Shown: positions 1-52,800 of the stretch, in pieces
Position numbering within the stretch: the first letter of the stretch is position 1
How the letters are laid out: each line of letters starts with the position of its first letter
Assembly (NCBI GenBank): GCA_034231615.1
Contig: CM067298.1
Span: 65,153,585-65,217,584, forward strand
DNA: 64,000 nucleotides
From: Meghimatium bilineatum
Lineage: Eukaryota > Mollusca > Gastropoda > Stylommatophora > Philomycidae
Direction of reading: 5' to 3'
Notes under the pieces: generated by a model
Seen by the model: only the letters and a program-made list of their open reading frames with translations
What the model was told of the DNA's origin: nothing
Database searches by the model: none
Program-made: the position numbers and the translations under genes

Positions 1-839
1 TCAGACCTAATTTCTTCTGCATGCACCGTGTTGAGTAACAGTGACTGTCGAATTAGACTCCGATTGATATACCTTCATAGACCAGGTGCTGCTTTGCCAC
101 ACACATTGGGGGGTCTGGGATTGGACCTGTGAAATTTACACGAAGTCGTCTCGTTCGCTTGTGATGGCCATCTAATCCATCGTCAGTCGCGGCGTGTGTA
201 TTTTGACTCTTCGTCATTGCGTATATTACCCAACGACGTGGGTAGATTACACTTATCTCAGACAATGAGCTTCACAATGATCCCTTGGGTACTGAACACA
301 ATTCTCTCTGTATGAGCCATGTTGGGCAACGGCCGTAATTTGATTTGGGCTAGGTTTGCTGTGTCGTTAGTGACGCGTCCCCCTCCACGTTGCCGAGGGT
401 CCAGAGTCCGAGTCTAAACACAGCTTCGTTCAGAAATGTGAACAATGTGCTCGCCAATATTTCTTCAATGCTTGTCCTGTGTGCAGTGGTGAGATGTGTT
501 AGAGGTTTTCTTTGATACCCAGGTGTACATGTTCAAGTTGGCTTATCCAATGCCCAAGACATCACTGCTACTTTGAATGGGGTCTATTGTGGTGGGACGT
601 GTAGCTTCTGTGTGTTCTTGAGCATGAACAGCACTTCCGCCAGTTGGTCTCGTGCTGGACAATTATCACGCCGTTGCTACTATATCGATTCACATACACG
701 GCGCTGCCCTCTAACACATTTTGTCATTTCCATTTTTAATGTGTACCATAGAGTCATGATATTTTAGCGGGATCTAACCAAATGGGGCATTTACATTAGT
801 TGTCCCTCAAATGTTTCTACAGTTTTTGCTATACGAGGC
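1..839. other. No gene recognised
   Basis: I see no protein family, spliced exon or RNA gene here. The short open frames have no recognisable motif. Base composition is more balanced than in the flanking AT-rich DNA, so this may be the far part of an old repeat whose end lies at 840-1125, but I could not align it to the full-length copies. Confidence 0.4.
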
Positions 840-1125
840 ACAATGCACAGATGCCATTCGTCACTGTGTGCCGACATTACTACTGGGTGTGTTTGCGTAG
901 AGGTCTAGGTGATAGTGTGTGTCTCTTTGCAGGAAATTCTCATCCCATCTTCAGCCTCCACATTCACTGACACGAGCCTAAAAGTATTAACCAGGAATAC
1001 AGCAAGAACGTCTGTATTTCTGTTTTCTGTATGCACTACGAGGAGGTACTTTAATGATCCTGGAAATCTGTTAACCCTTGGGTCAGCACGAGATCAATGT
1101 GAGAATCTTTGCACCCCACAGCAGA
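840..1125. repeat. Diverged end of the 12-bp-TSD repeat family
   Basis: This segment aligns by eye with the last ~280 bases of the complete copy at 25030-26346. Both contain CCTCCACATTC, a CTGTATTTCTGTTT block, a block like CTGNTAACCCTNGGGTC, and the terminus TTTGCACCCC. It is more diverged than the two complete copies, so it is an older relic. The other end of the element is not recognised here. Confidence 0.6.
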
Positions 1126-1200
1126 GAGTTGGAATCTCCTTTGTATAAAGAATAACTCAGAGTTGGTAGTCTCCTGTGTATAAAGGAAACTCTGGAGGGA
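1126..1200. repeat. Short tandem duplication
   Basis: A unit of roughly 35 bases containing GAGTTGG, TCTCCT and GTATAAAG occurs twice in tandem with a few differences. It directly follows the TTTGCACCCC end of the preceding repeat. Confidence 0.5.
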
Positions 1201-1259
1201 GACGTCACACAAATTGTAGATACCAAACAAGACCGCTATCAATGGTAATTCCGGGGGAG

Positions 1260-2990
1260 CGAAACAAAAAAATATTCTTGTATTGATGTGTTTAATTCAA
1301 CAACTTTTGTTATTACTGAATTATACCTTACGTTTTATTTAGAGATTGTTAGTTGTAATTTTTATTATTGAATTTTATATTGTCTTTACACATTGTTTGC
1401 AATACTTTGTTGAGCTCTAACATTATATAGCAAAGCATAATATTGATTGCTCTGGATAGGATGTTCCTCGTGTAGGATGAATTTCTACACGATATATATA
1501 GCTTATGCAGTGTAAAGGCCGACGAGGATCATAATCAGGAAAACGTTTATGTTGCTGTTGCTTTGAACAAGTTGAACTTGGAAGTTTCTGGTCGCACACG
1601 ATGTCGGCACAGTTTATTACATTACCGCTAAAATACACATTTTGTATTCTTCAAATTATGAAAAGAAAGCAAATATGCAAAAGGTCTTCGAAATAATTCT
1701 TTATAGGCAAGTGTTGCCATATACTACATTAGCGTTGAAGTTGGACAACGCATTCGAAATTGCAGCAAGTGACAACAGATCATATACACAACACATGGAA
1801 ATATAAGCATCACACTGTAAGAAGTAACAATGATAATTTTGTTGTAGAACACTGGAAAACTACTCACATGAACATCTCTACAAATTAAGTTGTGGGGATG
1901 CTTTAACAAATCGCTTTATATTTGACCAAAATCGGATTAGAAGCAAAAGTAATAAAACGCAGAAGAAAAGTTGGAGCAAATTTGAAGCCTCAACGTAGAA
2001 AATGCGGTATGTAATAAAGGAGCAAGGACGAAAGATTTGCATTGAGAAGATGCACATTTGAAGAAAGATAAATCTGTTTATGTTTATGTTTGTATCACAT
2101 ACACAGTTGCCGTCTCTATAAGTAATAAATGTAACGTGAATAAGAATGTGCAATCCTTTGTTCATAAATACATTATCACACTCATCACCAAGGCTAGGAC
2201 AGATATTGAAAATGATTTGATATTTTGATTTATGATTTATTTATAATATGATTTGATACAATGGAATTGTTACTGGTCTGTGTGTGTGTGTGTGTCTGTC
2301 TGTAGAAGTGTTAATACGATAGCTCAATGAAATGAAAGCAATAAATTGTGATCAGAAATGACGCGTCTCTCAAATAATTAATCACGCTTGCTCTAATCGC
2401 GTAGATTTTTCATGATTACAAAATAAAAATGTATTCCATTACAGTACAAATGGAAATTGCGGTATGTTTATACATATATACCGATAATCCTGGTTTGCGC
2501 CATTGCCCCGACACATCATTCCTCGGGGGGGGGGGGGCATCAATATAAAACAGAGATGACAACACACTGCTGTTAACATCTGGGTGAATAAACAGAAACT
2601 AGAGAAATTGATACATATACATACTTCGGATCTTACATGACCAGTAATGGAAGCGCTAACAAAGAAATAAAGATTAGACTTGCAATAACCACAGCTGCAA
2701 TAAGTAAAGCAGCTGTGTGAATATAAACATGTATAAATCTCTATCACCAAAGTTGCATTATACAAGACTATTATTATTCCAGCACTATGCTACCAGTGCC
2801 AAACCTGGACAATGACAGCACAATACAAAAGAAAAATAGTGACAACAGAAATGACATGTCTACGATGAATACTCGGAGTGTCATAAGAAGATTTATTTAA
2901 CAAGATAACTACTTATCCTCATAATAAATAATTACCGTTTTACTTTAAGTTAGAAACAAAAATATAAAATTGAAAAATGCTATCAGTTTA
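1260..2990. other. Unannotated AT-rich spacer
   Basis: No coding or RNA feature is supported. It holds a short TG microsatellite near 2279-2296 and a run of about 13 G at 2525-2538. The open frames on the minus strand look like random AT-rich translations. Confidence 0.5.
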
Positions 2991-2992
2991 GT

Positions 2993-3115
2993 TAGTTAAT
3001 TTGTTCCTTTCGTGCCGCAAGCGACACATAGGGCAGAAGTTTTGGTTCTCCATATGATGCGGTCCGCTGCCTGCAGCGTTAGATTCTGGATGGTCTTGCA
3101 GCATATTAATTCCCC
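2993..3115 (-). mobile_element. LINE 3' end fragment (GHVLR-type LINE)
   Basis: Reverse-complemented, this matches the 3' end of the LINE fragment at 20193-20620. Both share AACTTCTGCCCT, a TGTGTC(G/A)C block and GAAAGGAACAAA, then a TAAC-like tail (seen on + as TTAGTTAGTT). Only the 3' terminus is left, as expected for 5'-truncated retrotransposition. A third copy lies at 31870-31965. Confidence 0.6.
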
Positions 3116-3389
3116 TTCTTTAAGATGTTTAACGTTATGAAATATAGAAAGACAAAACACTTTATAAGAATATGGTTAAAAGAGACATGGAGATGAATAA
3201 CATTGTAGAGTGATTATAATATGATCAAGAGAGAGCCATATTACAAGAGGTGAATGACAAAATCTTATTTCGTCATGAACTTTCTAAATAATATTTCAAG
3301 AAGACTCCTATGGGTGTCTTAGACTTCCTAAGCATGTGTAGAAGATTATGCATAATGATGGCTCACTTGGTTCTAGTTAAACAAACCAT

Positions 3390-4680
3390 CGCTCGTCTAC
3401 GTGGTAGCACGCCCATCTTGAGACAGGTCTCCTTCAAGAGAGCCAATGTGGTTTACGAAAGGGAAGAGGTACAGCTGACATAATATTCACCGCCAGAAAA
3501 CTACAGGAAATGTGTCGCGAACAGAACATTGGTCTCTACATTACATTTGTCGACCGAACTAAGGCATTCGATACTGTAAATCGTGAAGGACTATGGAAGA
3601 TCATGGCAAATTTGGATGTCCCGAAAAATTCATGGTATAACAGCCTGTGTGCAAGATGACGACGCACACTCAGACCTGTTTCCAGTAACTAACGGTGTCA
3701 AACAAGGTTGCGTCCTGACTCCGATGCTCTTCAGCATGGTGTTTTCTGCCATGTTAACTGATGCCTTCCGGAAAAACAATGCAGGAATTTGTTTTCGCTA
3801 TCGAGCTGATCGAGGGCTGTTTAATCTTAGTAGAGTAAGGGCGAAGACCAAAACTAAGACGGACTTGTTCGCGACCTCTTGTTCGCCGACGACTGTGCAC
3901 TAAACTATACCGGTCTGAAAGACATGCAGGATATCATGAACCTTTTTTTATTGGCCTGTGATACGTTCGGTCTCACCATCATCACAGCGAAGACATTAGT
4001 AATGTATCAACCAGCGCCAGTTGTCTCCTACACAGAACCAGTAATCACAGTAAATGGACACAAACTCAATACTGTAAAGAAGTTTGTATATCTCGGCAGC
4101 ACCCTATCTCAAACTACTACAATTGACGATCATGTTGCCCTACGTAATGCTCGCGCCAGTGCGGCATTCGGGAGTCTTCGTGCCAACGTCTGGATCAGAC
4201 GTGGTCTCATTTTGACACCTAAGTTGAACGTGTACCGCGCAGTGGTTCTACCAACACTGCTTTATGCAGCATCATCCTGGACTGTCTATGCGAAACACGC
4301 TCTACAGCTTAATTATTTTCACCTTCGGTATCTAAGAAACCTCATGGGAGTACGTTGTCAGGATCGTGTACCAGACATGGAAATCCTTTAAATGTCCCGT
4401 ACGCAAAGCATCCATGTACTGCTTATTAGGTCCCAACTTCACTGGACTGGCCACATCGTCCATATGCCAGACATGGGTATTCTAAAGAGATTGTTCTATG
4501 AGAAGCTGTGTAATGGTAAACGTTCAAGCGGCGGACAGAAAAAGCGCTTCAAGGATCACCTAAAAAACTCTCAAGCACTGCAGCATCGATACTAGCTCCT
4601 GGGAGACTACAGCCTTGATCGCTCAGCTTGGCACACCCAGATCACTGCTGGCATCACTAAATTTGAAAATAAATAACACT
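3390..4680 (+). pseudogene. Decayed LINE reverse transcriptase, C-terminal half
   Basis: Frames at 3540-4595 together carry the middle and end of a non-LTR reverse transcriptase. A catalytic-palm context (FVDRTKAFDTVNREG) lies near 3548-3590. It is followed by GVKQGCVLTPMLFS (3694-3735), a degraded FADDCAL catalytic segment (3882-3902), a KKFVYLGSTLS strand and a LHWTGHIVHMPD tail with a GGQKKRFKDHLK box. Frameshifts and stops separate the pieces, including one just before the FADD segment. The tail matches the LINE at 60895-61330, so both belong to one family. No endonuclease domain is visible, so the copy is 5'-truncated and dead. Confidence 0.8.
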
Positions 4681-8699: not shown

Positions 8700-10018
8700 A
8701 AGTACTAAAGGTTATATTAAGGACTACGCACTTTTGTCCGCAACGATTATTCTCTAGTGCCATTAAGGACTGCACACAAATGCCATTACATACTGCCCAC
8801 TAGTGCATCAAAGACTACCCACTACGCCATTAGATACTGACCACTAGTGTTATTAAATACTGACTATTTAGTACCATTAAATATTGTCTGCTCGTACTAT
8901 TAACGACTGTGCACTAGTACCATTAACGGCTGTGCACTAGTGCCATTAATGACTCCACACAAATGTAATTAAATACTGACCACCGTTGTATTTAAAGACT
9001 GCCCACTAGTGTCATTAAAGACTGTCTTCTGGTACCATTAGCGACTGTCAGTTGGTACCAATACAGACTGTGTGCTGGTGCCATTTAAGAATGTCTTCTA
9101 GTATCTTTAAAGACTGTCTGGTGGTACAATTAAAGACTGTCTTCTTACCATTAAAGACTGACATCTGATACGACTAAAGACTGTCTGATGGTAAAAGATA
9201 GTCTTAAAGACTATCTGCTGGTATTATTCAAAACTGCCTAATCATGCACTTAAAGACTGTCTTCAGGTACAACTAAATACTGCATAATAGTACCATAAAA
9301 GACTATCTGCTAGTACTATTAAAGTCTGCAGGTCACTAGTATTAATAAAGACTGTCTGATGGCACCATTAAAGACTACTACTAGTACCATTGAAGACTGC
9401 CTGTTGGTACCATTGAAGACTGCCTGTTGGTACCAGTGAAGACTGTCTGCTGGTATCATTGAAGACTGTCTGCTGGTACATTAAATACCTCTGATAATAC
9501 CATTAAGACTTCTTTTGATACCATTGATTCTTCTTCTTCTTCTTCTGCGTTCGTTCTCAAACTCCTGCAGACTAGCAAGATGTAGTCCGGAGAACGGAAT
9601 ACGTTGTATCATAGTTTACAGCATTGCTGCGATATCTGCGCCTTTCGACCTGACACATCCGACTTCAGCATGGCTTTGGGTCACTGACCCTATATGGGAT
9701 GGGGCAGCCAACTCCATCCCATAACCTCCTTGATCGCCTTTTACGGCATGCGTGGAAGGTAAACAGTGTTGCTATTCTTTGCTTCCCTTTCGGGCCCCGG
9801 CAACACACGGGCAAGTACCATTGATGTCTGTCTGCTAATACCATTAGAGACTGACTTCTGGTACCATTAAAGACTACCTGCTGTAACTATTAAATACTGT
9901 CTAATGGTACCATTTAAGAATGCAGGCCGCTAGTACTATTAAAGATTGTCTGATGATATCATTAAATACTGTCTTCTAATATTTGTAAAGAATGTCTTGG
10001 TTTCATTAAAAATCATCT
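8700..10018. repeat. Degenerate ~23-bp minisatellite array
   Basis: About 40 degenerate copies of a unit close to TACCATTAAAGACTGTCTGC plus about three bases run head to tail. Left-hand units more often read CTAGTGCCATTAA(A)GACTG-CAC; right-hand units read CTGGTACCATTAAAGACTGTCT. A 287-bp retroposon interrupts the array at 9529-9815. Units are direct repeats with no unique spacers, so this is not a CRISPR array. No open frame spans it. Confidence 0.85.
9529..9815 (-). mobile_element. GAA-tailed short retroposon with 10-bp TSD
   Basis: The 287-bp insertion splits the minisatellite and is bounded by TACCATTGAT at 9519-9528 and again at 9816-9825. On the minus strand it ends in a (GAA)n tail preceded by GAGTTTGAGAACGAACGC, so it reads as a retroposon in minus orientation. 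The target is itself repetitive, so the duplication is supportive rather than decisive. I see no clear pol III A/B boxes. Related copies are at 21690-21912, 33270-33600, 36180-36460 and 51158-51480. Confidence 0.75.
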
Positions 10019-22800: not shown

Positions 22801-25800
22801 GACTAGAAATTGTCTGCATGTATTTATGGTAGAGGTCATTTATAAATACTTTTTCTGATTGACCTCAAGAATGAAACAATCTAGAATGTTAGATGTGATT
22901 TCATACTGAAGGTACCTATCTAGTTTAAATACATAGATATATAAATAAATGGGTACATTGTGTATAAAATATAGGTAAATGCCTAGAGGAGGATAATGAT
23001 ATAGGGGCTATTAAGAATTTAATATGTAGGCCACTGAAAAATAGAAAACACAGCAACTACAAAACAAGAACTTACAAAAAAGAAGTTCAAATCATAGGTC
23101 TAGTTGTTATTTTGTATACAAAAATTTGCTACTAAGTGCCATCTATTTGATTGATATCATAATAACAGCTCTGCTTTATCTAACTCCACAGCCTGACACT
23201 TATCTTTGCATAGCACAGAAAGTGGAGGAGGCACATCGATATATCAGTAAGTACTTCATGCATTTGTCATGAATGGGATTATATTGCTCTTATTGATAAT
23301 TGGATACTGTAGTAACCTCATAATATTCCTGGTAGACCCATATTTTCACCCTGTCCTAAAATATTTCAAGGTCTAGACATGCATTAGGTTTTTGCGGTTC
23401 TCCAGTTAAAAAACAGTCCTTATTTTGCTGAATGAAGCTTACATACCCAATCCTACATGTGTAGGCCCTTTTATAAGATTTCGAATTGCAGTAAGCACTA
23501 TAGATGCCATCATATCATCAGTGACAACACACGTGTTTTGTGTCACATACAGTTTCACTTGAACAATGAATGTATTCATTCTTTTCAATTGTTGATCTCC
23601 TGATTGTGTGGTGTTATTCTATGACCAGGAGGTCCACTCATTAAAATCTTCGCCAATGCTAACGGAGTGTATGGGAGCTGAAGTCTTTGTGAATGTAGCA
23701 GCTATTACACGTTTTTTTTTAAAAATGCGACCAAAATAAAGAGGCCTAAACGAGTTACATGGGGATCACACATTGAAGAGACGGAAATAAAAGGCACACG
23801 TAGACTACAAATAATGAAAAAGGCCATCTGCGACAGATTGGGAAGCTGACATAAAACCATAAAGCAAGTCTATGTAGTAATATTCGTCCAGCACTGTTGA
23901 ATGGATTGAACACATATGCAACGGCAGTAAATACCAATCTTCAGAAGCTGAACAAAATTCAGAATGCAGCCTAGGTCTCCGAATTATAAAAGGAGGACTC
24001 AGGAGCACACCTATAATGTCAACGGAAGCAACAGCAGGTTACAAAATTTAACAAGTCGCAGGGATGAGAAAATGAAAATAATGACTGAGAAAACAAATTA
24101 ACAAAATACAAACTGACTGAAAAGACCAAGCTTGAATCACCTATGAAAAAAACGTATGTAATCCAATGAAGAAGTAACCAGCAACAACCCGAATGAATGG
24201 GAACATCTAGAAGCATATTACAACATCGCAAACATCCCCCCCCCATGCAAAACTTACATCCCAGAGCATTGAGAGCAAATATATGGAAACCCCTACTGCC
24301 CTTAAGGCAAAAACACTTGATCACCTAGGTACCCAATACCCAAGCTAACAGTGGATTCACGTCTTCACAGATGGATCATCAGAGGATGCAGTAAAGAAAG
24401 GAGAAGCTGGGATACTAATGCTCATACCAACACCCTAAAACTAGAACTCTCAATCGCTACTAGCAAATTATCAACAAACTACAGAGCAGAGGTACAAACA
24501 ATCTTAGAAGCATCAAAGGCTCCAGAGGAACAGAGACTCAAAGAAGCTAATATATGCATGTCAGTACTCCAGTCCATCCGAAATAAACCTAAAGATCTAA
24601 CAAAAACAACTGTATACATTTTTAATTCAAGTAGGAAGCATGAGGATATATGAAAATAATTCTTACAACTGACGGGAATTGAACCAGGTCTGTTCTAGCA
24701 GCACCGAGTCGCTTTGTAACACAAGTAAACAGGTTTTCCGTACTTGACCAGCCACATTCTCAACAAAAAAAATGTGATCTCGTCAAGACTTTCAGCCTGT
24801 GTACTCAAGTCACTGAGAACAGACCAATCGAAACAATGTCAATTACACCATCAACAAACATCCCGTACAAGCATTAAAGTATACTTAAGAACACAAACAC
24901 AAAACATGTATATTCGTACACAAGGACCTAAAGGCCTTCTTGTAAATATAAATAACATAGAGATAGAACAATATTGCTTAAAATAATATCTGATACAAGT
25001 AAATTCAAGTAGGAAGCATGAGGATAAATGTTTGTTTGTTTTGCGTTCGCTCCATTGTAATCGGCACGGATATCCGTGTGATTTCCGCCGGGAGGTGATT
25101 ACGTTGTTCCACCGTTATGCGCCTTGCAGGCCTAGCACATCCGATTTCGGCATGCCTTGACAATTCGGGCGGGCTATCCTAGCCTGTGACAGCCTCCTTA
25201 TCTGTCGCCAGGCACGCGTGTGTGTGGTGACTCTTCGCCCAGACGATTTTTGATCACGTCAGCACGAGGTGTTCCACTGTCTATAAACTTGCCTCGTGTA
25301 ATTGGACGTACTGTGCCTCTGCCCATCGGGCACTGAACTGTTTCTCATCCGTGAGCCTAGTTCTTTAAGAGGAAGAACTCAGCAGAAGAAATGGACCATG
25401 GCTCTTTCGCCCTCTTAGCCGTAGTGTCATTCACAGACATCGTGAACCCCTCGCCAAAGTTCGAGTCTCACACCACGCGTTTGAGAGCAAGGCGTTCTCG
25501 AGCTGAGCGACCTTGAGCCCATCAGGCACTGAACCCTTTCTCTCTTCAAGTGTATTTTCGGTATAGGAAAACCTGACAGTAGAGTTGGGCCAGGGCTAAA
25601 ATCGTTGTCTCTTTAGTGCTTGAGCCCATCGGGTACGGAACCCTTTCTCTCTGTAAGTGTATTTCCGGTATAGGAAAACTTGACAGTAGAGTTGGGCCAG
25701 GACTGCCATCTTTGTCCCTGTTTGCCTGAGCCTAACGGTTACGGCGCCCTTTCTCTTTGCGAGCATGTTTCCGGTATAGAATTACTCGACATTAGAGTTT

Positions 25801-28800
25801 GCTTCCATGTCTTTTTTGCTTTGCTAGACGCCCATTATTGGGTATGGGTCTCTGCCTATAAGGAAATCAAATAACTAGAAGTTCGTCACGAGCTAACAGA
25901 GCTTGTAGTTCCCATTTCCGTAATCGTTTTCACGTTCTATTTGCAGTTGGCGCTGCCCTCTAGCGATGTTCTGCCCTTTCATTTTTTCCATTGTACTCAG
26001 TATGAAATCTGTCTGTCTTTCGCCATGCATGCACCTTTTCATGCTTTTTTCATTGGCCGACCCTCCAATGTTCGGACTGGAATGACTAGCGTCACTGTAT
26101 GTCAACAGTGTCGTTGTATGTGGTGATGCCGGTGGTGTCGGAGATATTGTCTGTCTCTTATGCAGTCAAATCCCTTTCCATCTGCTACCTCCACATTCTC
26201 AGACACGATCCCCAAATGATTTGGCCAGAATCAGCTCGAGCTGCTGTATTTCTGTTTCCAGGGTGCACCGCGTGGAGGTACATTTGGGATCTTGGTTATC
26301 TGCTAACCCTGGGTCCGCGGAGAGCAATGCGTTCCCTTTGCACCCCATGAGGATAAATAAAAATAATTCTTACGAGACAACTGACGGGATTCGAACCAGG
26401 TCTGTTCTAGCAGCACCGAATCGCTTTGCAACACAAGCAAATAGGTTTTCCTCTGTTTTTTTGTTTTGTTTTGTCTATGTTTTCCCTCTGTTATTGGTCT
26501 GTTTTCAGTGACTTGAGTACACAGGCTGAAAGTCTTGACGAGATCACATTTTTTTTGAGGATCTGGTTGCTCAAGTACGGAAAACTTGTTGGCCTATTAG
26601 GCCTGTTTATTTTCCTCTTCGCACACCAGCCACGTCCATAGGTGCTCAGATCTCCACTTCAGTAAATCTCTTAGGGTATAACGGCTGATGGTACCGGTTC
26701 TATGTTGGTTCACTGGTCTTTTTCAGCGATTTGTCAGGGGTTTTCTACGGGCCACGCCCATCTTCACTCCCAATTCCCGCATTCTCGATATTGATTCATT
26801 CTCAATTAACTAAAAATCCTCAGATCGTGAAGACTTACGAAGAACAATGAGTATGTCTGCTCGGTCCATAGGCTGACCTACTGTTGTGGTGGCGAGGCTA
26901 GCTAATTTGTTGGCACGTTCGTTTCCCTCCGCGCCTGCGTGTCCATGGACAAAGATAAGCGTGAGTTTTCGTAGTGATGCCCGTATTTTAACTCTCTCTA
27001 ATGACTCCACCCATTCCCTACGTACATCAATTGTTTTCACTTTTTGAATCATAATCATTGAGCCACTTAATATGCACGCATGGGAATATGCTTGCGATTC
27101 CAGCCAGTTGAGTGCCTGCGTTACGGCGAATATTTCCATTGTTAGACTTCTTGTTGTTGCGGGAAAAGTACTACTGGCTTCGTGTACTGTTCTTCCTTTT
27201 GATCTGGCAGTAAAGGCCCATGCGCAGCGATGGTGACGGATGACCGACCCGTCCGTGTAAATCACATCTGTGTTATCATTATTCTCGCATATTAATGCGT
27301 TGACCTCAGCGTCCACGCTCACAGGGCTGTGTTCCCTGCACTCTCTATTGAGTGTAATGAGGGTCTTGAATGCCTTTGAAAAACCGCAGGAATAGGTATC
27401 TATTTTACGCCAGGAGTTATATCTTCTGGAGCGCAGATATATTTAACGTTACCCTCGGCACGACCCATCCACGATTTGTCTCATTTGAGCCTGCTTCCCT
27501 TTACGCGAGGGAGCTGGTTGTATAGTGGGTGGTCTATGTCAGAACTCACTCTGAGGTATGCACGGGCAGGCCACATTAATTATGTCACGGTGTAGACATT
27601 GAATAATACGGGTGAGAGGGGAGATCCATGTAGAAGACCTGAACGTATTGTTATGGAATTAGATGTCCAACAACCGCACCTAAGAGCCAACTTCTTCTCG
27701 AGCAACGCCGCTGATATTCATCTGACGATAAAAGGGTTAACAGTTTAGCGAGAGCATGTTGATGAGGTACTCGAAAGTCACTCTGTCATACGCGCCCTCC
27801 AAGTCAATCGCAACAGCACACATTTCCAGTCCTGCGTGGAAGCCCTGGAATACGTCGTAGGTGAAAACAGCGGAATTGTGCCACGTTTATTTCTGACGTC
27901 TGTAGCATCCGAGCGTGCCCGGGAAAATGTGTCTCTCTTCCAGGTCTCGAGCGAAGTGCTGTGCTATAATCTTCTCAAAAAGTTTCCCCTGGTGTTCTGC
28001 ATTGTTATGATTCGGTCGCCGTTGATCTGTGCGTAGTTTTTATTAGGCTTCTTTATTGGCAATAGGCAGCTGTGTAGCCATTCTTCCATTATAGTACCGT
28101 TCTTGATACTTCCCTTAATCTCACCAACCAGGTCGTTTATGTCACTCTCCTTAAGGAAGGCGAAGTCCTCATAATGTATACCGTCAGGGCCTGGGAAGTA
28201 TTCCGCGACCACTTAAGAGTGGTTTTTACGGTCTCTGCCGTGATGTGTATGCTCTCCTTCCACTCAGCCTCCGTACATAGTCCAGGCAGCGTGGTGATAA
28301 TCCCCCGCCTGACATATAGATTGTTTTGGTCCGTCTGTTGAACTTAATGCTCAAGGAAGACCTTTTCCGTATCTTCGTCTGATTTCTGCCATGTCAGATC
28401 TGTGAATTGAAAATCGTAGACGTGATAGGTTTTTAGACTGATGCTCAGAACCACAGCAGAAAAATAAATAGGTGGTAATACCACATATCCCCAGACAAAA
28501 ATACCTTCTTCTATCTATATATATTGGGTCAAAGGGCATGGATCTCTGGATCAGCAACCAATCAACCAACTACCGATCTATATATATATATAGGCCTATA
28601 TGTGTTCATTTAGCATAAAAAAACAGAGCATAGGGTAGAAATCACTGCTCTCCATTTTGAGTATATGATGCAGCTCGGTGTAGTTTTTTGTAACACGGAA
28701 CTGCATAAATTTCTTTTTTCAATGATAACTTGTTACGCCATTGATCATTTTTCAGACCTCCAATCAGCTATTTTAGGGTTATCAGTATTTAATATAACCT

Positions 28801-31800
28801 AGGAGCGCCATTACTTTGACTAATCATTAAATCAAATCATCTAGCCTTTATAGGTCTATCACTAAATATCATTGAGATTCTCAAGACACGGCATAATACA
28901 TATTTCCTTTACATTTTGTACCATCTGCATTACATTCATTGTTACTAATCAATTGTTGTTTTTCTGTGATCTTCAGCTGGTTTTGTACCTGATGCTGATT
29001 CCAATATAGCTCATCACATTCTGCTATATGGCTGTACAGTACCAGGTGCTCCTGCTGGTGAGGTATGGTAAGTATGTAACATTTATTTCTTGACTATCTC
29101 ATGTGTGTGGGCGGTTGTGCATGTTTATGTATGTATACATGCTCTGTGTATGTCTTCTGTAAAATATTGTATTCAATATTACCCTAAACCTCTCCACTCT
29201 GTGCAAGATAACATGCCTTCATCAGTGTCATATTTATATGATAACATCTAAATATGTTAAATGCCTTGTTTCCGTCAACATTTCTTCACAACCTTCATTT
29301 CTCTTTCCTGAAATCTGTACTTCCAAGATTGACATCCAAGTGTACCACAAGCCAACCTAATAAATAGGTTTATGATTACGTTTTTATGACATGTCTTAAA
29401 TAGATGTCTACAGATGCATCTCAATGAAATTATTTTGACATGTTTGCTATGAGTGTCCGACTCTGGTAGAAGTATAGAGCAAGTCCTGTGACCGCAACAA
29501 ACAAGATTGAATGTCTACAATAAGCAGTTGTTTATTTGTACCATTCAGAAAATAAAAGCAAACAACTGAACATAAACATAGGGCATATCAAGAAAAGACA
29601 ACAGCCTGGCCAAAAAATGTCATGGTTCATGGCTATATACTGAATAGGATATTATTTTTTATACTAAGAGTTAGTCTTTCTGAAACATTGGGTCTTCATG
29701 GTTCATGGCTATATACTGAATAGGATATTATTTTTTATACTAAGAGTTAGTCTTTCTGAAACATTGGGTCTTTTATGTGTCTGCAAATGTCAGCTTGCAT
29801 TTCATGATATTTTTCAGAAGTCAACCTTTGTTTATGCTAAAACCTGAGAGACATATATTTTGTTGTTCAGATCTAGATATTTCATTCACTTGAAGGTGAT
29901 CCAAAGTTTGACTTCACATCATGTAAGTCAAGACTTCTTCTCTGGCTTTCTTGACATTCTAAGGGAAATTTATATGGATTTTTTCTTTGGACTGCATCAA
30001 TAGAAGTACCCAGGATGAGCTTTGTACTCTTTATCTTGTACATTGAACTTATGTCTTTCTATTCCAGTTGATAACTCTCCTCCCAACTAATTGTGTCAGG
30101 GTTGATTTTTAAAACTTTCTTTCAAATCTCAGATGATTGCTTAACTCAATGTGGTTGTAGTATACAAGAAATTTAGTCATGATTTGTACATCTTTGAGAT
30201 ACATTCCACATTGAAGGGTTGAATACCTTCATTCTGGACCATCATAGTGTCAGACTAAATCAGAAAATTTAGCACATTCTCCTTTTTACATTGTTAAAAA
30301 GGAACCTTATTATGCCATGTAAACTGATGCATAGTCTGACTGTAAATTTATAACTATAATAAAAATGATATATAAGCCTGATAATAATTTGTCAGGTAGT
30401 TAATTGAATCTATTCTGATAAAGGTTGCAAAAGAGAGAATTAAATGTTTAACTTTTTTTGATCCTTAAACACCAGCTGCTTTTGTATACAGCATTTGAAA
30501 TTCCAATACAGCCACGTGTTGTGGGGACCTGAAAAATGCACAGAGAATATAGCAATCCTGTGACTTGCCATGTATGTAATAAAATACTAGTGAGGTTTGG
30601 TGATGGAATTGACTATTCCATCCCATAAAATATATCAATGTGACACACACAAATGTTGAAGTTGGATGTGTAAGGCTGAAGGAAGCAGATAGATTCAAGC
30701 TATAAACCATGCCACAACAGTCAATTCTCAGAGATTCTTGATTAGGAACAAGCATCACAGCACTTGGGGCGTTCCCATATATGCTCTGCTTGCCATTCCT
30801 TCAGCCATCTAAATGTGTATAAGCACAGTGTCCCAGTCAGTTGCTGATAACGTGTTCTTCTGATCTTTCCGGAGAGGGAGCACTTTCTCCCATCACCTCT
30901 AACCACTCCCATTTCTACCATTCTCTGAATATGTGTTCTGAATTCTCAGAGAACATCCTGCTAACCAGTAGAAGCTCGAGATGAACATTTAAAAAAACAA
31001 GAAATGTTGATTAGTTAGCTTAGTGATAGTTCAAGAAATAGTTATGCAAATTAATTAACACCACAGAGTGATTCAGAAGAAGCAGGAAAACAAATAGAGA
31101 AATAACAGCAGACAGTTGTGATCATTTTTTTTTCAAATTTTTAAGCATTAGGATCATATTTGCAGGGACTGTGGAGAGATGTCATCAACATCTTCAAATT
31201 ACAGACTTGGTGAGGTCTGTCAAGAAGGAAACAACATACTTTATGCATGGGCAATGGATGCACCTCAATTATCCCTCCCTAAAGGTTGGTAAAACTACAA
31301 ATATGATTATTGAGTTTCAAATATTCATTTATGCTTTGGTAGGTAATCCTCAGTGTTAATTTATACAATTGTATAATGCTCCTAATGTTTCATTTTTACA
31401 GTGATGCAATACCCCCGCTATATCATCTACAAAGTGATTTGATTGTTCATTGTTACAGTGGTATGACATCTAAACATATTCATTTATACAGTGGTGTAAT
31501 GCATCCAATATTTACTTCTACAAGAATGTAATGTAAACTTCATGTGCACAGATGACAATGACGAATCACTTCACTGGATCAGGACTAGATCATCATATAG
31601 GTAAAGTTAATCAAGCTAAATGGCTTTGGGTCACACATCCATATCTATCTAACCAGTGGTTGACAAGAGACTAGTGCCATCTTGAACACCTACATCTTAG
31701 CAATTGTGCCAGTACTTGGCTTTTCTTGCATATGTACCATATAATCCATCTCTAGTTGACTTGGTTCACTACAGAAGTTTTTATGCAGTCAACATGTCAG

Positions 31801-40800: not shown

Positions 40801-43800
40801 GAAGAAGAAAGAAAACAGGTGGTCCTACTCTGTGCGACCTGAATTAGAAGATCAGATCCAGGTTGCCACATGAGCATCAGAAATAGATAGAATATATAGG
40901 CCAGAATAGTTTTATAATTCTATGTTGGGCCTGCTTCATTTCTTAGTGGCTAATATTTGTTTTAATCACCTCAGGACCTCAAAACAGGCAGCAGTGTACA
41001 TCATGATGACTGATGGCCATATTCCTGCTCATACAATTGGTAAGAATATCAAAAACATTTCATAGTAAAATATTTGCCAGATTTTTATTGATCTACAGGT
41101 AATTTTAAGTTTTGTTATGATGAAAATACAGAGCAAATAGAACTAGGCCTATATCATTTTGTGACAGAATATTATTTCAAATAATGTTCTGTCACACAAT
41201 AGTAGGTCTATATGCCTATTTTTGTCATGGAAAAAGAAGAAAATGAACAGAGAAGACCTGACAAAACTGCATATTAAAATCTATATCTTTGAAATAATTA
41301 AAGACATGACATCTTGTTAAAGACTTTACTTGAGGAAAGAATTGAGGAGAGGGAAGCAAGAGGTAGGAAATATACAAGTGGGAGGGAAATATGGTAGGCA
41401 TGATACAGTCTAGCAGAGTGCATCTCCACAGCAAAAGACAGAAGATCTCTTGCAGCCAATATTCATAGATGGCACTTGATGATGATTTTAAGAGTTGGAT
41501 AAGCTCAGTTGCTAGTATGCAGGTTTGAGGGTCGAAAAGTTCTAGATTTCAGTCACCACAATATAGGCCCTACACATGCATACCTGAAATGCACAGTTGG
41601 GAAGATTAATAATACAAGGACTGTCCCATTCACTTAAGATAAGCCTGAGGGTTAGGTTTATAATACTGTGAGGTAGAATACATTTTTCCAATTTCTTAAC
41701 TCTAAAGCAATCACAGATAGGCTATATCTATCAGCTATTTGAAGAAGCTATATGTGAACAATAACCAATATAGGGCCTATCAGTTTTGGTTTCAATTAAC
41801 CATATTTTGATTAGTTTAGGACTAGGCCTCCTATAGACCTACTTTGTGGTTCATTAATACAGAATTTTATGTTAAACCAATTCTTGGGGTGCAAAGGAAA
41901 CGCATTGCTCTAGGCGGACCCAGGGTTAGCAGATAACCAAGATCCCATATGTACCTCCGCGCGGTGCACCCTGGAAACAGAAATACAGCAACTCGAACTG
42001 ATTCTGGCCAAATCATTTGGGGATCGTGTCCGAGAATGTGGAGGTAGCAGATGGAAAGAGATTTGACTGCACAAGAGACAGACAATATCTCCGACACCAC
42101 CAGCATCACCACATATAGCGACACTGTCGACATACAGTGAAGCTAGTCAGTCCAGTCCGAACATTGGAGGGGTGGCCAATGTAAAATGCACGTGAAGGTA
42201 GATGCATGGCGAGAGACAAATCGATTTCATACAGAGTACAATGAAACAATGAAAGGGCAGACCAGCGCTAGAGGGCAGCGCGAACTGCAAATAGAAAGTG
42301 AAAAGTCCCTAGGAAAGGGGAACTACAAGCTCCGTCAGCTCGAGGCGAGCTTCTAGTTACCTGTGTTCCTTACAGGCAGAGACCAAGACCCATCCATTGG
42401 CGTTTGGTAAAGCAAGAAGACCTAACCCAACTCTTATGTCGAGCCTTCCTAAACTGGAAATATGCTCGCGAAGAGAAAGGGTTCTGTACCCGATGGGCTT
42501 AGGCAAGAAAGGGACAACGATGGTAGTCCTGGCCCAACTCTACTGTAAAGGTTTCCTATAACGGAAGTACACTTACAAAGAGAAAGGGTTCCGTACCCAA
42601 TGGGCTCAGGTGCTATTGGGACAAGGACGCTCAGATCGAGAACTCCTTGCTCTCAAACGCGTGGTGTGAGACTCGACCGTGGACAAGGGGTACACGATGT
42701 CGGTGAACGACACCTCGGCTAAGAGGGCGAAAGAGCCAGGGTCCAACTCCTCTGTTGAGTTCTTCCCCTTAAGGAACCAGGCTCATGGATGAGAAACGGT
42801 TCAGTACCCAATGGGCACAGGCACAGCACGTCCAATTACACGAGGCAAGTTCATAGACAGTGGAACACCTCGTGCGAGTCAGATGAGAGCAAAAATCGTC
42901 TGGGCGAAGAGTCGCCACTACACGTGCCTGGAGACAGATATAGAGGCTATCACAGGCTAAGGGTAGCCCACCCGAATTGTCAAGGCATGCCGAAATCGGA
43001 TGTGCTAGGCCTACACGGCGCATAACGGTGGCTAACGTAATCATGCTCCCGGCGGAAATCGCACGGATATCCGTGATGGTTACAATGGAGCGAACGCAAA
43101 ACAAACAAACAAACAAACCAATTCTTTACTGCTACATGTGAGAATACTTCTATGTTTACTAAAAACAAATGTCTTTTGTTTCTAAAAGCTGACTGTTTTC
43201 ACTTTAACATCTGTAGTATATTTCTGACTGAGACATATTGACAAGTGCAACTGCTTCTGGATACAGCATGGAACAAACTACCTGTATTGTTCTTATTCAT
43301 AGCTGTTCAGAGACAGAAGATTGCAATAGCAAGTATAGGCTACTAATAGTTGTAATCTTCTCAAGGACAAATATTAAAGAGGTTTGAATTAGGGTTAGTA
43401 TTTTTGATACATGTGGCCTATAAGTACACCACTTAACACCACTGTCAACACCACTTAAACATCAAAGAGCAGTGATCACATAACAATAAGCGTTTAAGAA
43501 AATAGAATGACTAAGTTCATTTCAAATTGGTCAAAGTAATAACATAAATCTGTATGTGGAGATATTTTACTCAATAGACACAAATCAATATGTAGTAAGT
43601 GAACAAAGTTTGTAGATAATGAAAATGTGGTGATGTAGGTCTATATTTATTAATATATTTTTTTGCTGTGATTTCTAGAGAGATAATATGGCTCATCTTT
43701 TGGAAAGTTGTCTTGATCTTCACCATAGAATGCTTCATCTTTCTTATAGACATTGCTAAGAAAGTCTTCACTGAAGGAGATTGTAAAAATATTGTAGTAT

Positions 43801-46800: not shown

Positions 46801-49800
46801 TTGGCAGCCCATTCGCGGCACTCTCTTCCCATCTGTATCATAACTGTTGTCAATAACTTTCTCTCTTTACCAAATGTCGCCCATTCACAGCCTCTTCCCA
46901 CTTCCTCCAGCTCACAAATTCTGAGTAGGGTATCTTCTGCTTCTGCCATCCAGGACCTTCCTCTCTTGATACATCTTCATTTTGTGTTGTCTAGAGATTG
47001 ATGTAAGAGGTGATGATCAATATTGGTGACCTTGAAGTATTCTTTAACCTAAACTATTTTATTTCTTGATTTGTTGCTCATATATAGGGATAGGTTCATT
47101 GGTGTTTTATCACCAAGAAATGAGCAATATCTCTTGATTCCTTCATGGAATGGGAAAGTATCTTAAGAGCAATTTTTGAGCTAAAACATAATTCTGTCCA
47201 GACTCTGGTTTGGTCATTTTCCATATATTTCAAAGGTTCAATACCAGGTTATGATGTCTTGATTACATTTCTAGATGGCGAAATAAGAGTACAACAGTCT
47301 ACATATTTTTAGCCATGTGTTTTCTTATCTCACAGAAGACTGTCAGAAGTCCTTCAGTAATAGTTCTACATCTCATTCTTTCCTATGTTTCTGTTAGTAG
47401 GTTTGCAAATGTGATTATTTTTCTTCTTCTTCTGTGTTCAGTCTCTGATAAAGAACAAGAAATGTGTATAATTTCTGCCAAGGATTGGGAAGTACATTGT
47501 ACTTCTGGTTTCCAAGTGGTTCTGCATTATTTTGCATCTTTTGGTCAAGCATATTCATTTTTGGCATGCTTTTTAATTCAAATGAGCTTCCCTAGACTGT
47601 TACAGCCTTCTATCTGTCACAAGGCAAACAAGTAAGTATCTGCTCTACACTCTGACAGTTTATCACCGACTATGCCCTTGGAATTTACAAGATAAAAACT
47701 TATCCCTGGATGGCAGTTTCTGAATAGATAGTCAACAGGGATTATGACTTGGGTCAACTACATCTATCTCATATGTGATGTTCTGCTGTTAGTGAACTTA
47801 TTTTCTGTAATTAAGACACTATTGCCCCCTATGTCCTCAGTTACTGGCTTTTGTCTTGACTGCAAGTTTCTTTCAGTAAAGGTAATTTTTCAAACAGTAA
47901 TGTTAAACTAGAGTTTATTCATTCTCTTAGCCAAGATTTTGTTTACCAATATCGTGAATACCTAGTCCAAGTTTGAGCTTCTACCAAGATTTTCTTTGTA
48001 CCTGGATAGTATGGTATCTTACCTTTACCATTCCATATAACTTGTTGCCAGAAAACAGCTTGTTCTCGAGCATAAACATTGCTTTCGGTTATGAAATTCT
48101 CACTTAAATTCTCACTTATGGTGCTGATCTTTAGTGCTGTGCTACCTTTGTGTGTACTCAACCAATGAATTATACTTCTCTATGGGTATTCTTGCCAGAG
48201 TGAGGTTTCAGACATGCCAACCAGAACTCCAGGACAGCTATTGTTTTTTATATGTGATGGGCCGAGGTTCTATTAATAGATATTGTCTGTCCAGTGCAAA
48301 CAGTTCTTATTCCATGTCAGTCTGCACTGCCCAGACACGATCCATAAAGTATTAGCCAAATTTCTTTGCACAAGCTTTATAACAATCTGTTTTCAGGATC
48401 ACAATGAGCAGGTGCATTTAGGATCTTGGTTATATGCTAATCCTAGAATTGCACAAGAGCAATGCATATCCCTTTGCACCCCACAAACGTTTTAGAAATT
48501 CAAAAATATTCAATTTTAAAACTGCCCATCTGTCTAAGCTATCAAATGTCATGTCACTGCCAAAAGTTCAATGCACAGCAAAGAATTCAGTTCTAAACTT
48601 GTTATATTATTATGGGTATTATAGCTAGTTGGACTGTACACAGTCTTTTCTGTTGAAAACAAACACAACCTTTAGGCCTATTCTGTAGCTATTTGTGTAA
48701 GATATTTTTTAATCTTTCTAGGTTAATCCTATTTAGTATTATTTCTGAAACTGATAATCTCCTGTGATTTGTATAATCATAGTTTTTTTTTTGTCCCTTT
48801 TTGTATTTAGTTTGACACATTATCATTCTTTTAAATTTCTTGATATTTTTTTATCTCTCCCATAATTTTGCACAGTAGTTTGGAAATAATTGGAGATAAC
48901 TGTGGCAGGATTACTTGAACTTCCACCTCTTCTACATTATAATGTTGTGTCCTAAAAAAATTGGCTTGCATCTCTGGGAAAGAATCATGCTTCACTTTGA
49001 AGAGAATTTAATCCACAATCCACCAATTAATGAACTAATATTCTTCCATTTTCTTTTTTTTTTCACTTGGAATGTGCTTATGTTTGAAGTTTTGTCTCTT
49101 CTATAAACTTGATTGTTTCTTGTAACTTACAGAGGTCCATAGAGTTTTTCTTCCAGTTTTGTTTCTCTGGGCCAGTGTGTTTGCCACAGCATTTCATATT
49201 CTGGGCATTCCTGAAGAATATTCTCTGCTGAGGTGCTTGTCCACTTACACATCACTGTGTTGTCAATTTTGAACTTTGTTTAACCTACATGTGGCTGCAG
49301 AGTTGATTGTGTCCTATTCTAGGGCACATAATGATTACTTATTCTGGTGTGTTCGTAATTTCATCATCATCTTGTGTTGATTTTGGCTTTCTAATTGCTT
49401 TGATAATCTGTTTTTTAAATTGTATGTTAATGGTACATCTGGTTGATCTTCAGCAATAGCCAACTTAGTCAAATGTTCTGCTTTCTCAATGATATTCCAC
49501 AGTGTGATAGTATCCACTGTATAGCTACTTTATTATGATTGCTTCTTTGTTCAATAGTATTTGCAAGTCTGTTAGTTTTCTGGACTAGAGAACTTGAAAT
49601 ACTGATCTTGCATGTCAGGAATACTGCAGGCTGTGGACTGAGATTGGCACTAAGCATAATTTCTGCGTCATAATTATGACATAATTTCCCAGTTTGTACT
49701 TTGACTGCATCCCTAATATTGTTTAGTTGCTCTACATATATTCCAACTGTTATAGTTTTCACTGCATTCTCTGCTGACCATTCTGTATATACTCTGATCC

Positions 49801-52800
49801 TTATGTCTTGTAGAAATTCATTATCCAGGAAACTGAGAATAAATCTCTTATGTTGTACACTATTCTGTTTATTCCAACAAAGGCTGAAAACTAAGATTGG
49901 CCAGGCCCACCTATAATCGAGAAAGACCACAAGTTCTGAAGATGGAGGCAAACAGCCATGAGGCGCACCAGAGTAATCAGGATGTCACGCACCAACCCAC
50001 AAAATGAGAATATATTTTACCAATATTATGATTATCAGGTAGCATATCCAGGACAGGAGTAGCATTCATCACAGGCTTTCAAAACTTCTGCAAATCTTGA
50101 GCTACTTTTTGCATTACTATCATGTTATAAAGGTCTTGAATATTTTGTGTCCATCTCCTTGAAAATGGTCTATCTTGAATATCACATTTTTATATTAAAC
50201 ACTGTCCACAACTCAGTTGGATACACTAAACACAAATCTGGAGCTTGTAATATATAAACTGAAACATTTTAATCTTGCGTTGTTATACTCACAGGACGTG
50301 TCATCTCGGGTTACCGCATTCGTGATGGTCAATGGTCTGAGATTGGCCGGAAAGATCCAAGACTACCAGAGGTAAATGAGCTGTTTATTTAGTCATAAAA
50401 AGTAGACAATGAATCAATTGATAAAAAGATATACTAACTCCTTCATGTGTACATAAAAGATGCATAATATTGCTGCCTTTTTATTGAATATATTAATTAG
50501 AACAAATGATATTGTCTGATTATCAATATCATCTTTGGGCTATGTGTAGGCATATATATATATATATATAGGCATATATGATGCCACTGACATCGTCTTT
50601 CAGAAGATTTGTTTTTTTTTAAATGTCATACTATATTTTTCCCATTAGGGAGTTTCTGAGAGTATTCAAGTGTTTTGTCTGATAAAGGCCATATGCCCTT
50701 AATGTCACCATGTCTTATTCAGGGCACGTTTTTTTCATTAACATTCTGACAGAGAAAACCCAGCCCTTACTAGGAATCAAACTCAGGACCGCATTTAATT
50801 TAAATATTTTTTAAATTAAAAAAAAAAGGCATTTGGTGTTAAAAATTGATGTTTTTATAAGAATACGTAGGCCCATATGAACTTTTTTAAATTTATATTT
50901 ATGTAAAAAATAAATTGACAAGCTATACTAGATGTTATTTCCGTTGTTTCCCAAGTTTTGGATTTCCATGGTCAACATTTGTTTCAACAAGACTAGCAAT
51001 ATTCAAATTTATTCTTTCTCAACAGATGTTCTACAATACCAGTAACCCTGGCATGACAATCAGACGTGGTGATATTTTGGTAAGTGTTTATATATACTCA
51101 TGAATATAATATGACAATAATAATAAGACACATAGCCCATCAAGTCCTGCTTCTTCTTCTTATGCGTTCATCCTCAAGCCCTTGCATATTAGCAGGATGT
51201 AGTCTGGAGAATGGAATGTGATAGGCCTATGTCATGGTTAACATCATAGCTGTGATATTTGCACCTTTCAGCCTGACTCATCTGACTTCAGCATGACTTC
51301 TGGGTCACTTGGACCTCTATGGAATGGGAGAGCTAATTCACCCCCCCCCCCCCAAACCTTCTTAGTCACCTTTCACCATGTGCATGATAAGTCACAATAA
51401 CAGTGCCACCAATTTTTGCTCCATTTTCGGATCCCCACACCACACGGGTTGGCCCATGACCATCTACAGATATAGAAGACCTAACCGCTAAATGTAAACA
51501 GTCGTTATTCGGTATGGTTTTGATTATTGTCATATTTTCCATTGGTTACTATTTATATAATTGTAGTAGCCTTGGCTATTTTTGGCATGTGATTCCAAGT
51601 ATATAAATATCGGCCATCGAAAATCATGGGAATAATCAAGAAAAGTAATGAATTGAGGCCTTGTTAATTTTGTTAGGAGGCCTGTAGTACTCCATCAAAA
51701 GCCATGGCTGATCACTGATCTATAACACATAGCACAGTCCACATCACACGGGTTAACCACTGATCTAAACCATATTGCACAGTCATTGTTTTCTTTTTGT
51801 TTTTTCTCACATGTCCTAATGTTGAATCTGAGCACCAATCTTACTTGCATGAACTGTCCTCAAGAGATAGAAATAGGGCTCTGTTTACTGGTAGAAAACT
51901 CAAAAACTTTTGTGTCTTAGATAGTCACTTTGACTAAACATAATGCTTCATAAATAACATTTAATTTAGTCATAGTAAATACAGAATTTGCCACTTTATA
52001 GAAGGTGGTTTTACATTTGCAGTCAATTGGAGATAATAAAAACAATTGTCAACAGATTTGTTTTAGCAATTATTATGTGAAAATAAAGTTAAGAAATCTA
52101 CTAATGCTACTAATATATATATATCCACACATACACTTAATATATTTCAAATGTTTCACATAAAATATGAACAACTGATATACTCAAATAACCACTCTAC
52201 TTGTATTAAACTTGCTTGTAGACTAAGAAATAACTTAGAGCAAAATTTACAACAGTTTAAACTTAAGAGACACCATGTTCAAATGATATTTTTAATAGAC
52301 AGGAAGTTCTGCACTGAATAGTTGCTGCACTTGTTGCTATGTAGTGCAGATTGCTGTTTCATTTCCTGGGGCAACTTTCACTGTCAACAATGATTTCGCA
52401 TGTGAATCCCTTAACGATTTTTACTCTATCATTTATACACAGGGACAGGAAATATATAGGTGAAAGTGGCAAAAGACTAAGTGACTATTTCTTCCGACAT
52501 GTTCATGTCATTAACTACAGAACACATATGCCCTTCTCCTGTCACTATACATTTCAGTGGCACTGTTTGTTGTGGCGTCTATAATATTTAGACTGACGAT
52601 AAAGCTAGATACAGCCTTGAAAATCATTACATATTGCAGTTTGGTACCCTCTGGCCATTTGAATACCACACATTCTTTTCTTTAGTATTGGGGGGGGGGG
52701 GCTTTGTTGTGTTGTCATTCATGTTGTTTTCAAGCATATTTGTTTTATTTCGTTCTTTTTCCCATATTATTTAATGTGTCTCTCTATGGTAGTGGATGTG

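Follow-up and report, generated by a model that had tools for sequence, protein, structure and literature searches.

A 64-kb stretch of the genome of Meghimatium bilineatum (the window, taken from a 1.61-Gb assembly with 32 contigs) holds copies of a repeat family, the two complete ones being termed here e1 and e2. The family very probably represents a non-autonomous retrotransposon without long terminal repeats (non-LTR) that is headed by a self-cleaving ribozyme resembling that of hepatitis delta virus (HDV). Such an element would be transcribed as part of a host RNA, would owe its 5' end to ribozyme cleavage, and would be copied in trans by the reverse transcriptase (RT) of a long interspersed nuclear element (LINE), with the two nicks at the target spaced ~12 nucleotides (nt) apart. 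A single mechanism accounts well for the predicted structure, the target-site duplications and the 3' motif; within it, cleavage would follow from the modelled fold and the identity of the helper is suggested by sequence likeness. The copying enzyme is probably borrowed from the LINE found at 52896-56946 of the window.

The e1 copy occupies 25030-26346 on the minus strand (1317 nt), with its 5' end at 26346 and an (AAAC)n tail at 25030, and e2 lies at 41886-43114 on the plus strand (1229 nt), inverted relative to e1; their identity is 84-86% in the two main BLAST pieces. A 107-bp unit is repeated 2.7 times inside e1 (25512-25799, minus strand). As proposed in an earlier note on this DNA, each copy is complete and is set between its own exact 12-bp duplication, ATGAGGATAAAT in the case of e1 (25018-25029 on its 3' side and 26347-26358 on its 5' side) and AAACCAATTCTT in the case of e2 (41874-41885 on its 5' side and 43115-43126 on its 3' side), although the first bases of the latter, AAAC, could derive from the tail, such that e2 taken alone indicates 8-12 bp only. 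The same note described one (AAAC)n end and one invariant CCTTTGCACCCC end; both are present, but the element had been read from its 3' end. Followed from its 5' end, each copy runs GGGGTGCAAAG...(AAAC)n, the GGGGTGCAAAG end being the 5' end (CCTTTGCACCCC on the other strand) and (AAAC)n the 3' tail. Two further loci, 840-1125 and 48283-48482, had been thought to keep the invariant end alone. They are instead parts of diverged copies on the minus strand, c3 (1-1117, with its 5' end at 1117 and reaching the window edge) and c4 (47420-48482, with its 5' end at 48482 and colinear to the 3' end at ~47420), which match the family colinearly past nt 250 (best local scores of 277.5-311 versus shuffled maxima of 246.5-265, with 60 shuffles each).

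Target-site duplications, a simple 3' tail, no terminal repeats and no protein characterise a non-autonomous non-LTR retrotransposon, and this combination is what e1 and e2 present. Direct comparison of their termini reveals no inverted repetition between them, and a Pfam search of 10 translated pieces of at least 50 amino acids (aa) gave weak matches for five and none at cut-off, in agreement with the earlier report that terminal inverted repeats and a coding domain are lacking. A short interspersed nuclear element (SINE) would carry an RNA polymerase III (Pol III) promoter or a head derived from tRNA, 5S or 7SL RNA, no sign of which was found in e1 or e2. A SINE with a tRNA head was rejected, as no A/B box pattern was found in the sense orientation of e1 or e2 and no tRNA in the 64-kb window, where no Rfam family reached its gathering score either.

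The nature of the invariant 5' end had been missed: the first 140 nt of the element form a predicted HDV-like ribozyme, located at 26207-26346 on the minus strand in e1, where it starts at element nt 1, and at 41886-42025 on the plus strand in e2, where P2 contains one U-U mismatch. HDV-like ribozymes feature a 7-bp P1 that begins at the cleavage site, a P2 pseudoknot, a 3-bp P3 followed directly by P1', a P4 and a C-N-R-A sequence in J4/2, and each of these parts has a counterpart in the predicted structure. In e1, P1 is formed by nt 1-7 and 81-87 (GGGGUGC pairing with GCACCCU, the first pair being G-U), P2 by nt 56-66 and 129-140 (11 bp with one bulge), P3 by nt 68-70 and 78-80 (ACC/GGU around a 7-nt L3, UCCACGC) and the P4 hairpin by nt 93-104 and 112-121, with CCAA at nt 123-126 of J4/2. 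In the e1 stretch (301 bases), Rfam gives a single match, to drz-agam-1, which coincides with the predicted ribozyme (24.2 bits, E 0.0077); drz-agam-1 is also the only match in the e2 stretch (20.4 bits, E 0.067). A strict descriptor of the structure has a single match on the two strands of the window, its first base at 26346 coinciding with the first base of e1, and no match in 100 shuffles.

Sequence variation within the family is suggestive of conserved pairing. In a set of 12 sequences (e1, e2, c3, c4 and eight chosen genome loci), 92.5% of the cells in the predicted helices are paired, versus 34-51% when slid by 1-3 columns. Five pairs are changed on both sides versus 2.2 by shuffling (5/500), and changes on both sides occur in 10 cells versus 3.1 by shuffling (0/500). 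For instance, A-U becomes G-C in P3 of three loci (L050, L051 and L053), and U-A becomes A-U in P2; the independent covariation events are few. Across 64 5' ends, the best placement of P1 gives seven pairs in 45, six in 11 and five in eight.

The duplications and the fixed 5' end extend to copies elsewhere in the genome. Searches were made with the family (40 scored of 11,380 first-look candidates, with 41 matches listed), with its 3' end (best 40 of 2,139 scored) and with its 5' end (best 40 of 1,144), and the 63 places examined, comprising 39 fetched stretches, 22 loci and the two window copies, are thus the best-scoring ones and not a random sample. A requirement for both ends removed 11 places, among them L052 and L059, which keep just the final 220-230 nt, and L056, in which both end regions flank a different middle, and left 52 full-length copies. 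An exact duplication of at least 7 bp flanks 38 of the 52, with a length of 12 bp in 20 cases, 11 bp in six and 13 bp in five; 31 of 38 are thus 11-13 bp, the other seven being 7, 8, 8, 9, 10, 15 and 25 bp, and lengths are uncertain by one or a few bases where the tail merges into the duplication. The near-fixed length of 12 bp, put forward from two copies, therefore holds among the genome copies examined. The 14 copies without an exact match include several (e.g. L021, L028 and L034) that show a duplication with substitutions, and two copies, L023 and L024, have identical flanks and possibly stem from a single event. The flanks differ among the 52 copies, with no run of at least 10 bp shared by any of 2650 mismatched pairs of flanks from different copies, and so do not correspond to the single 28S rRNA site of R2. 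The element starts at nt 3 or earlier in 47 of 49 copies, and the 3' tail varies in length and composition. In one case (L133), a family copy is nested in a LINE copy: the LINE runs from nt 1 to 3228, is interrupted by the element and resumes from nt 3218, repeating 11 nt with one mismatch (longest exact match 6), and the uninterrupted site is present in the window LINE.

The latter LINE, the candidate helper, is 4051 bp long (52896-56946, plus strand) and is flanked by an exact 12-bp duplication, ACTGTTTTTATT, at 52884-52895 and 56947-56958. Its open frame (52999-56916, plus strand; 1305 aa from stop to stop) encodes an apurinic/apyrimidinic endonuclease (APE), an RT and an RNase H, a combination within one frame that is a feature of the ingi clade. 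A predicted HDV-like ribozyme extends from the first base of the LINE (52896-52970, plus strand), with P1 CCCCAUC/GAUGGGG, P2 GGCCAG/CUGGUC, P3 ACC/GGU, L3 UUGAAGU and CUAA, and does not align with that of the family. A descriptor anchored at the first base is passed by e1, by e2 (for which the P2 partner found is an alternative one) and by the LINE, and by 2/20,000 shuffles of e1 and 0/20,000 of the LINE. Exact matches to the initial 79 nt of the LINE are found at 776 places in the genome (reversed control, 0), which points to recent activity. Readable duplications were found in 16 of 21 examined LINE copies, with 11 bp in eight, 12 bp in six, and 9 and 15 bp in one each, and none of 420 mismatched flanks share at least 9 bp; the size is conserved, with 11 bp slightly ahead of the 12 bp described for the ingi clade. 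A 5'-truncated copy (L007) carries GACAACTGTAGA twice, a duplication of 12 bp, or 13 bp counting a base shared with the element. Two relatives of the LINE were also observed. One is an internally deleted copy (L132:51-445) in which LINE nt 1-300 are joined to nt 3958-4051, giving a true short internally deleted element (SIDE), 395 bp long and bounded by a 12-bp duplication; the other, at 49051-49912 on the minus strand of the window, is a diverged relative with 70% DNA identity over LINE nt 3189-4048, the 3' end included.

The link between the LINE and the short family lies at the 3' end. The terminal motif of the LINE, AGTGAACGAAAGAA (56927-56940, plus strand; third base C or T), is common to some non-autonomous copies, and AGYGAACGAAAG can form the terminus in either family. 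Within the window, AGYGAACGAAAGAA is found at the LINE 3' end and nowhere else; in 266,189 fetched bases it occurs 23 times, always where a LINE or a family copy ends on its 3' side. AGCGAACGAAAG was read at 49 places with LINE-like upstream letters (control, 0). The 3' end of one family copy (L022) matches the last 60 nt of the LINE better than shuffles do (6/2000). The shared 3' end supports the idea that the LINE enzyme may copy the family, and is no proof of it. An autonomous partner sharing the ends had been suggested as the thing to look for, and the candidate LINE has the 3' terminal motif, but its 5' ribozyme does not align with that of the family. It had also been argued that variable duplications, together with a LINE sharing the 3' end, would make the family an ordinary LINE-mobilised SINE; a LINE can indeed share the terminal motif, but the length of the duplications varies rather little.

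These features suggest the following sequence of events. An element copy would be transcribed within a longer host RNA, and the predicted ribozyme in its first 140 nt would cut just 5' of nt 1, such that the 5' end is fixed as GGGGTGC. The 3' end, GAGCGAACG followed by an A-rich tail, would be recognised by the RT of a LINE such as that at 52896-56946, a step supported by the observations above. Target-primed reverse transcription, for which the duplications, the tails and the nested insertion argue, would then place the second nick ~12 nt from the first and so leave the near-fixed 12-bp duplication at each copy. The LINE may follow the same plan with its own, non-aligning ribozyme.

A number of results weigh against this reading. 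With regard to the ribozyme, the Rfam scores of e1 and e2 lie below the gathering score of 37 (no Rfam family reaches its gathering score in the 64-kb window), L050, L051 and L053 are not listed by Rfam, and the 5' stretch of the LINE gives five weak matches and no HDV family. The ribozyme descriptors were composed after the sequence had been seen; a relaxed version, with two window matches (26346 and 41886), is unspecific (209 matches in 100 shuffles, including 21 that have a full P1), and the anchored one is met at 55 window positions on the two strands. Further pair types show no excess (8 versus 8.1; 380/500 shuffles), and in four sequences taken alone 82.9% of the cells are paired and double changes are weak (62/500). 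In young copies the ribozyme is about as conserved as the body (0.961 versus 0.956; 32 rows, one duplicate dropped), a flat profile that is expected if most copies decay neutrally, and minimum-free-energy folding, a method that cannot show a pseudoknot, does not set e1 apart from its shuffles (z -0.02). With regard to the helper, the fetched loci in which AGYGAACGAAAGAA was counted overlap and were chosen for having family or LINE ends. Among 37 readable family copies, CAAAAC (20) is a commoner 3' continuation than AAAGA (6), the remainder being AAAAAC (6) and others (5). The end of e1 matches the last 60 nt of the LINE no better than shuffles (540/2000), and that of L017 is borderline (151/2000). 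Lastly, LINE duplications are more often 11 bp than 12 bp (8 versus 6), and no duplication was found for two of three further LINE pieces.

On the strength of the low Rfam scores, the flat conservation along young copies and a ribozyme activity that is predicted only, the family could be viewed as a common type of repeat mobilised by a LINE, with a fixed 5' end that serves only as a promoter or favours full-length copies, and with no ribozyme involved. This is unlikely, given that P1 starts exactly at the first base defined by the duplication in e1, e2 (with the alternative P2) and the LINE, and that P2 and P3 stay paired through double changes. A variant of the ribozyme-headed mechanism, included in the probability given to it, retains every step and assigns the helper role to a LINE other than the window family. 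The shortness of the shared 3' motif, the CAAAAC tail of most copies, modal duplications that are one base apart (12 bp in the family, 11 bp in the LINE) and the presence of further LINEs in the genome lend this variant some weight, but it seems the less probable assignment, since the window LINE has the terminal motif, the duplication length and the 5' ribozyme layout of the family. One such further LINE adjoins e1, as an RNase H fragment at 26813-27442 on the minus strand whose family is very large (150 scored of 54,092 first-look candidates). It was rejected as a helper, as no end shared with e1 was found in the 20 loci read of the 150 scored; outside e1 itself, the lone match with E <0.05 between its loci and e1 (L082) is weak and in opposite orientation.

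The existence of the 395-bp SIDE described above shows that internally deleted derivatives of the window LINE do occur, but it is highly improbable that the short family is a plain derivative of this type: when the LINE was searched against the remainder of the window, neither e1 nor e2 was matched, the likeness is limited to the terminal motif, and the two ends of the family do not both come from the LINE. Cut-and-paste movement of a DNA transposon that duplicates 12 bp would account for the near-fixed duplication length and for one end with a fixed terminal sequence. However, direct reading shows that the ends do not form inverted repeats (the automated search covered arms of at least 60 only), no transposase domain was found among the translated pieces, the opposite end is a tail that differs in length and composition between copies, and there is a LINE that shares the terminal motif and has similar duplications, such that this explanation was rejected as extremely unlikely. 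The ribozyme-headed retrotransposon is the preferred reading.

Other repeats were noted in the window. A 75-bp repeat lies on either side of e1 (26377-26451 and 24665-24739), one copy of which contains GGTTCGAATCC, which we take to be B-box-like, and an inverted pair of 65 nt lies farther out (arms 24764-24828 and 26493-26557). At a distance from e1 are an array of a diverged 23-bp unit (8854-9994) and an exact tandem duplication of 76 bp (29620-29771).

If the ribozyme-headed reading is correct, a self-cleaving ribozyme can stand in for the Pol III promoter of SINE-like parasites in a large genome, and a ribozyme-headed parasite needs no fixed insertion site such as the ribosomal RNA genes (rDNA). 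The near-fixed 12-bp duplication would be tied to a particular type of LINE, and two ribozymes, those of a LINE and of its presumed parasite, could be compared within one genome.

The ribozyme drz-agam-1 is linked to RTE elements of Anopheles. The corresponding Rfam family (RF01787) has in common with e1 and e2 the P3-L3 sequence ACCUCC(N)CG and C-Y-A-A in J4/2, whereas J1/2 of e1 and e2 is longer (P2 from nt 56) and their score is below gathering. Retrozymes, as presented in parts of PMC7761336 and PMC7229834, are likewise non-coding retroelements with a self-cleaving ribozyme, but these are hammerheads, with circular RNAs (PMC7761336), and no Rfam family is found at gathering score in this window. 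SIDEs of the R2 and R2/R1 hybrid types in Drosophila join a 5' HDV-like ribozyme to a LINE 3' end, sometimes with the two drawn from different LINEs, and passages of PMC3414825 indicate that these two parts suffice. The R1-type SIDEs have 14-bp duplications, and Drosophila SIDEs sit at fixed rDNA sites (PMC3414825, same passages), whereas the family sites here are dispersed.

A close likeness is to the ingi-clade pairs of trypanosomatids (L1Tc/NARTc, ingi/RIME and SIDER), whose hallmark in print is a 5' HDV-like ribozyme together with a fixed duplication of 12 bp. The earlier note judged the family unusual and knew of no class with a fixed 12-bp duplication; unusual it is, but a conserved duplication of 12 bp is described as a particularity of ingi-clade retroposons in sections of PMC3820030. 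According to sections of PMC4035085, which screened duplications of 7-11 nt, HDV-like ribozymes head long and short members of the clade in trypanosomatids. The 5' HDV-like ribozyme (here predicted), the 12-bp duplications of conserved size (here those of the short family, the LINE having 11 bp slightly more often), and an APE-RT-RNase H LINE accompanied by short non-coding partners are common to both, as far as these sections go (PMC3820030, PMC4035085). Unlike in those pairs, the short family here has a ribozyme and a body different from those of the LINE, is 1.2-1.3 kb long with an internal 107-bp repeat, and resides in a 1.6-Gb genome. A literature search found no family of such build outside trypanosomatids and rDNA; Repbase lay outside its scope, and no claim is made that the family is unpublished. 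The chances appear about even that this genome harbours, together with an ingi-like LINE, a parasite with a ribozyme head that lacks a Pol III head, did not arise from the LINE by deletion, and acquired a second, unrelated HDV-like ribozyme for processing its 5' end while copying the LINE 3' motif alone. The ribozyme would then represent a swappable head, like the tRNA in ordinary SINEs, and ribozyme-capped pairs with a fixed 12-bp duplication would extend beyond trypanosomatids. We read the LINE and its presumed short partner as a counterpart of the trypanosomatid ingi-clade pairs in a far larger genome.

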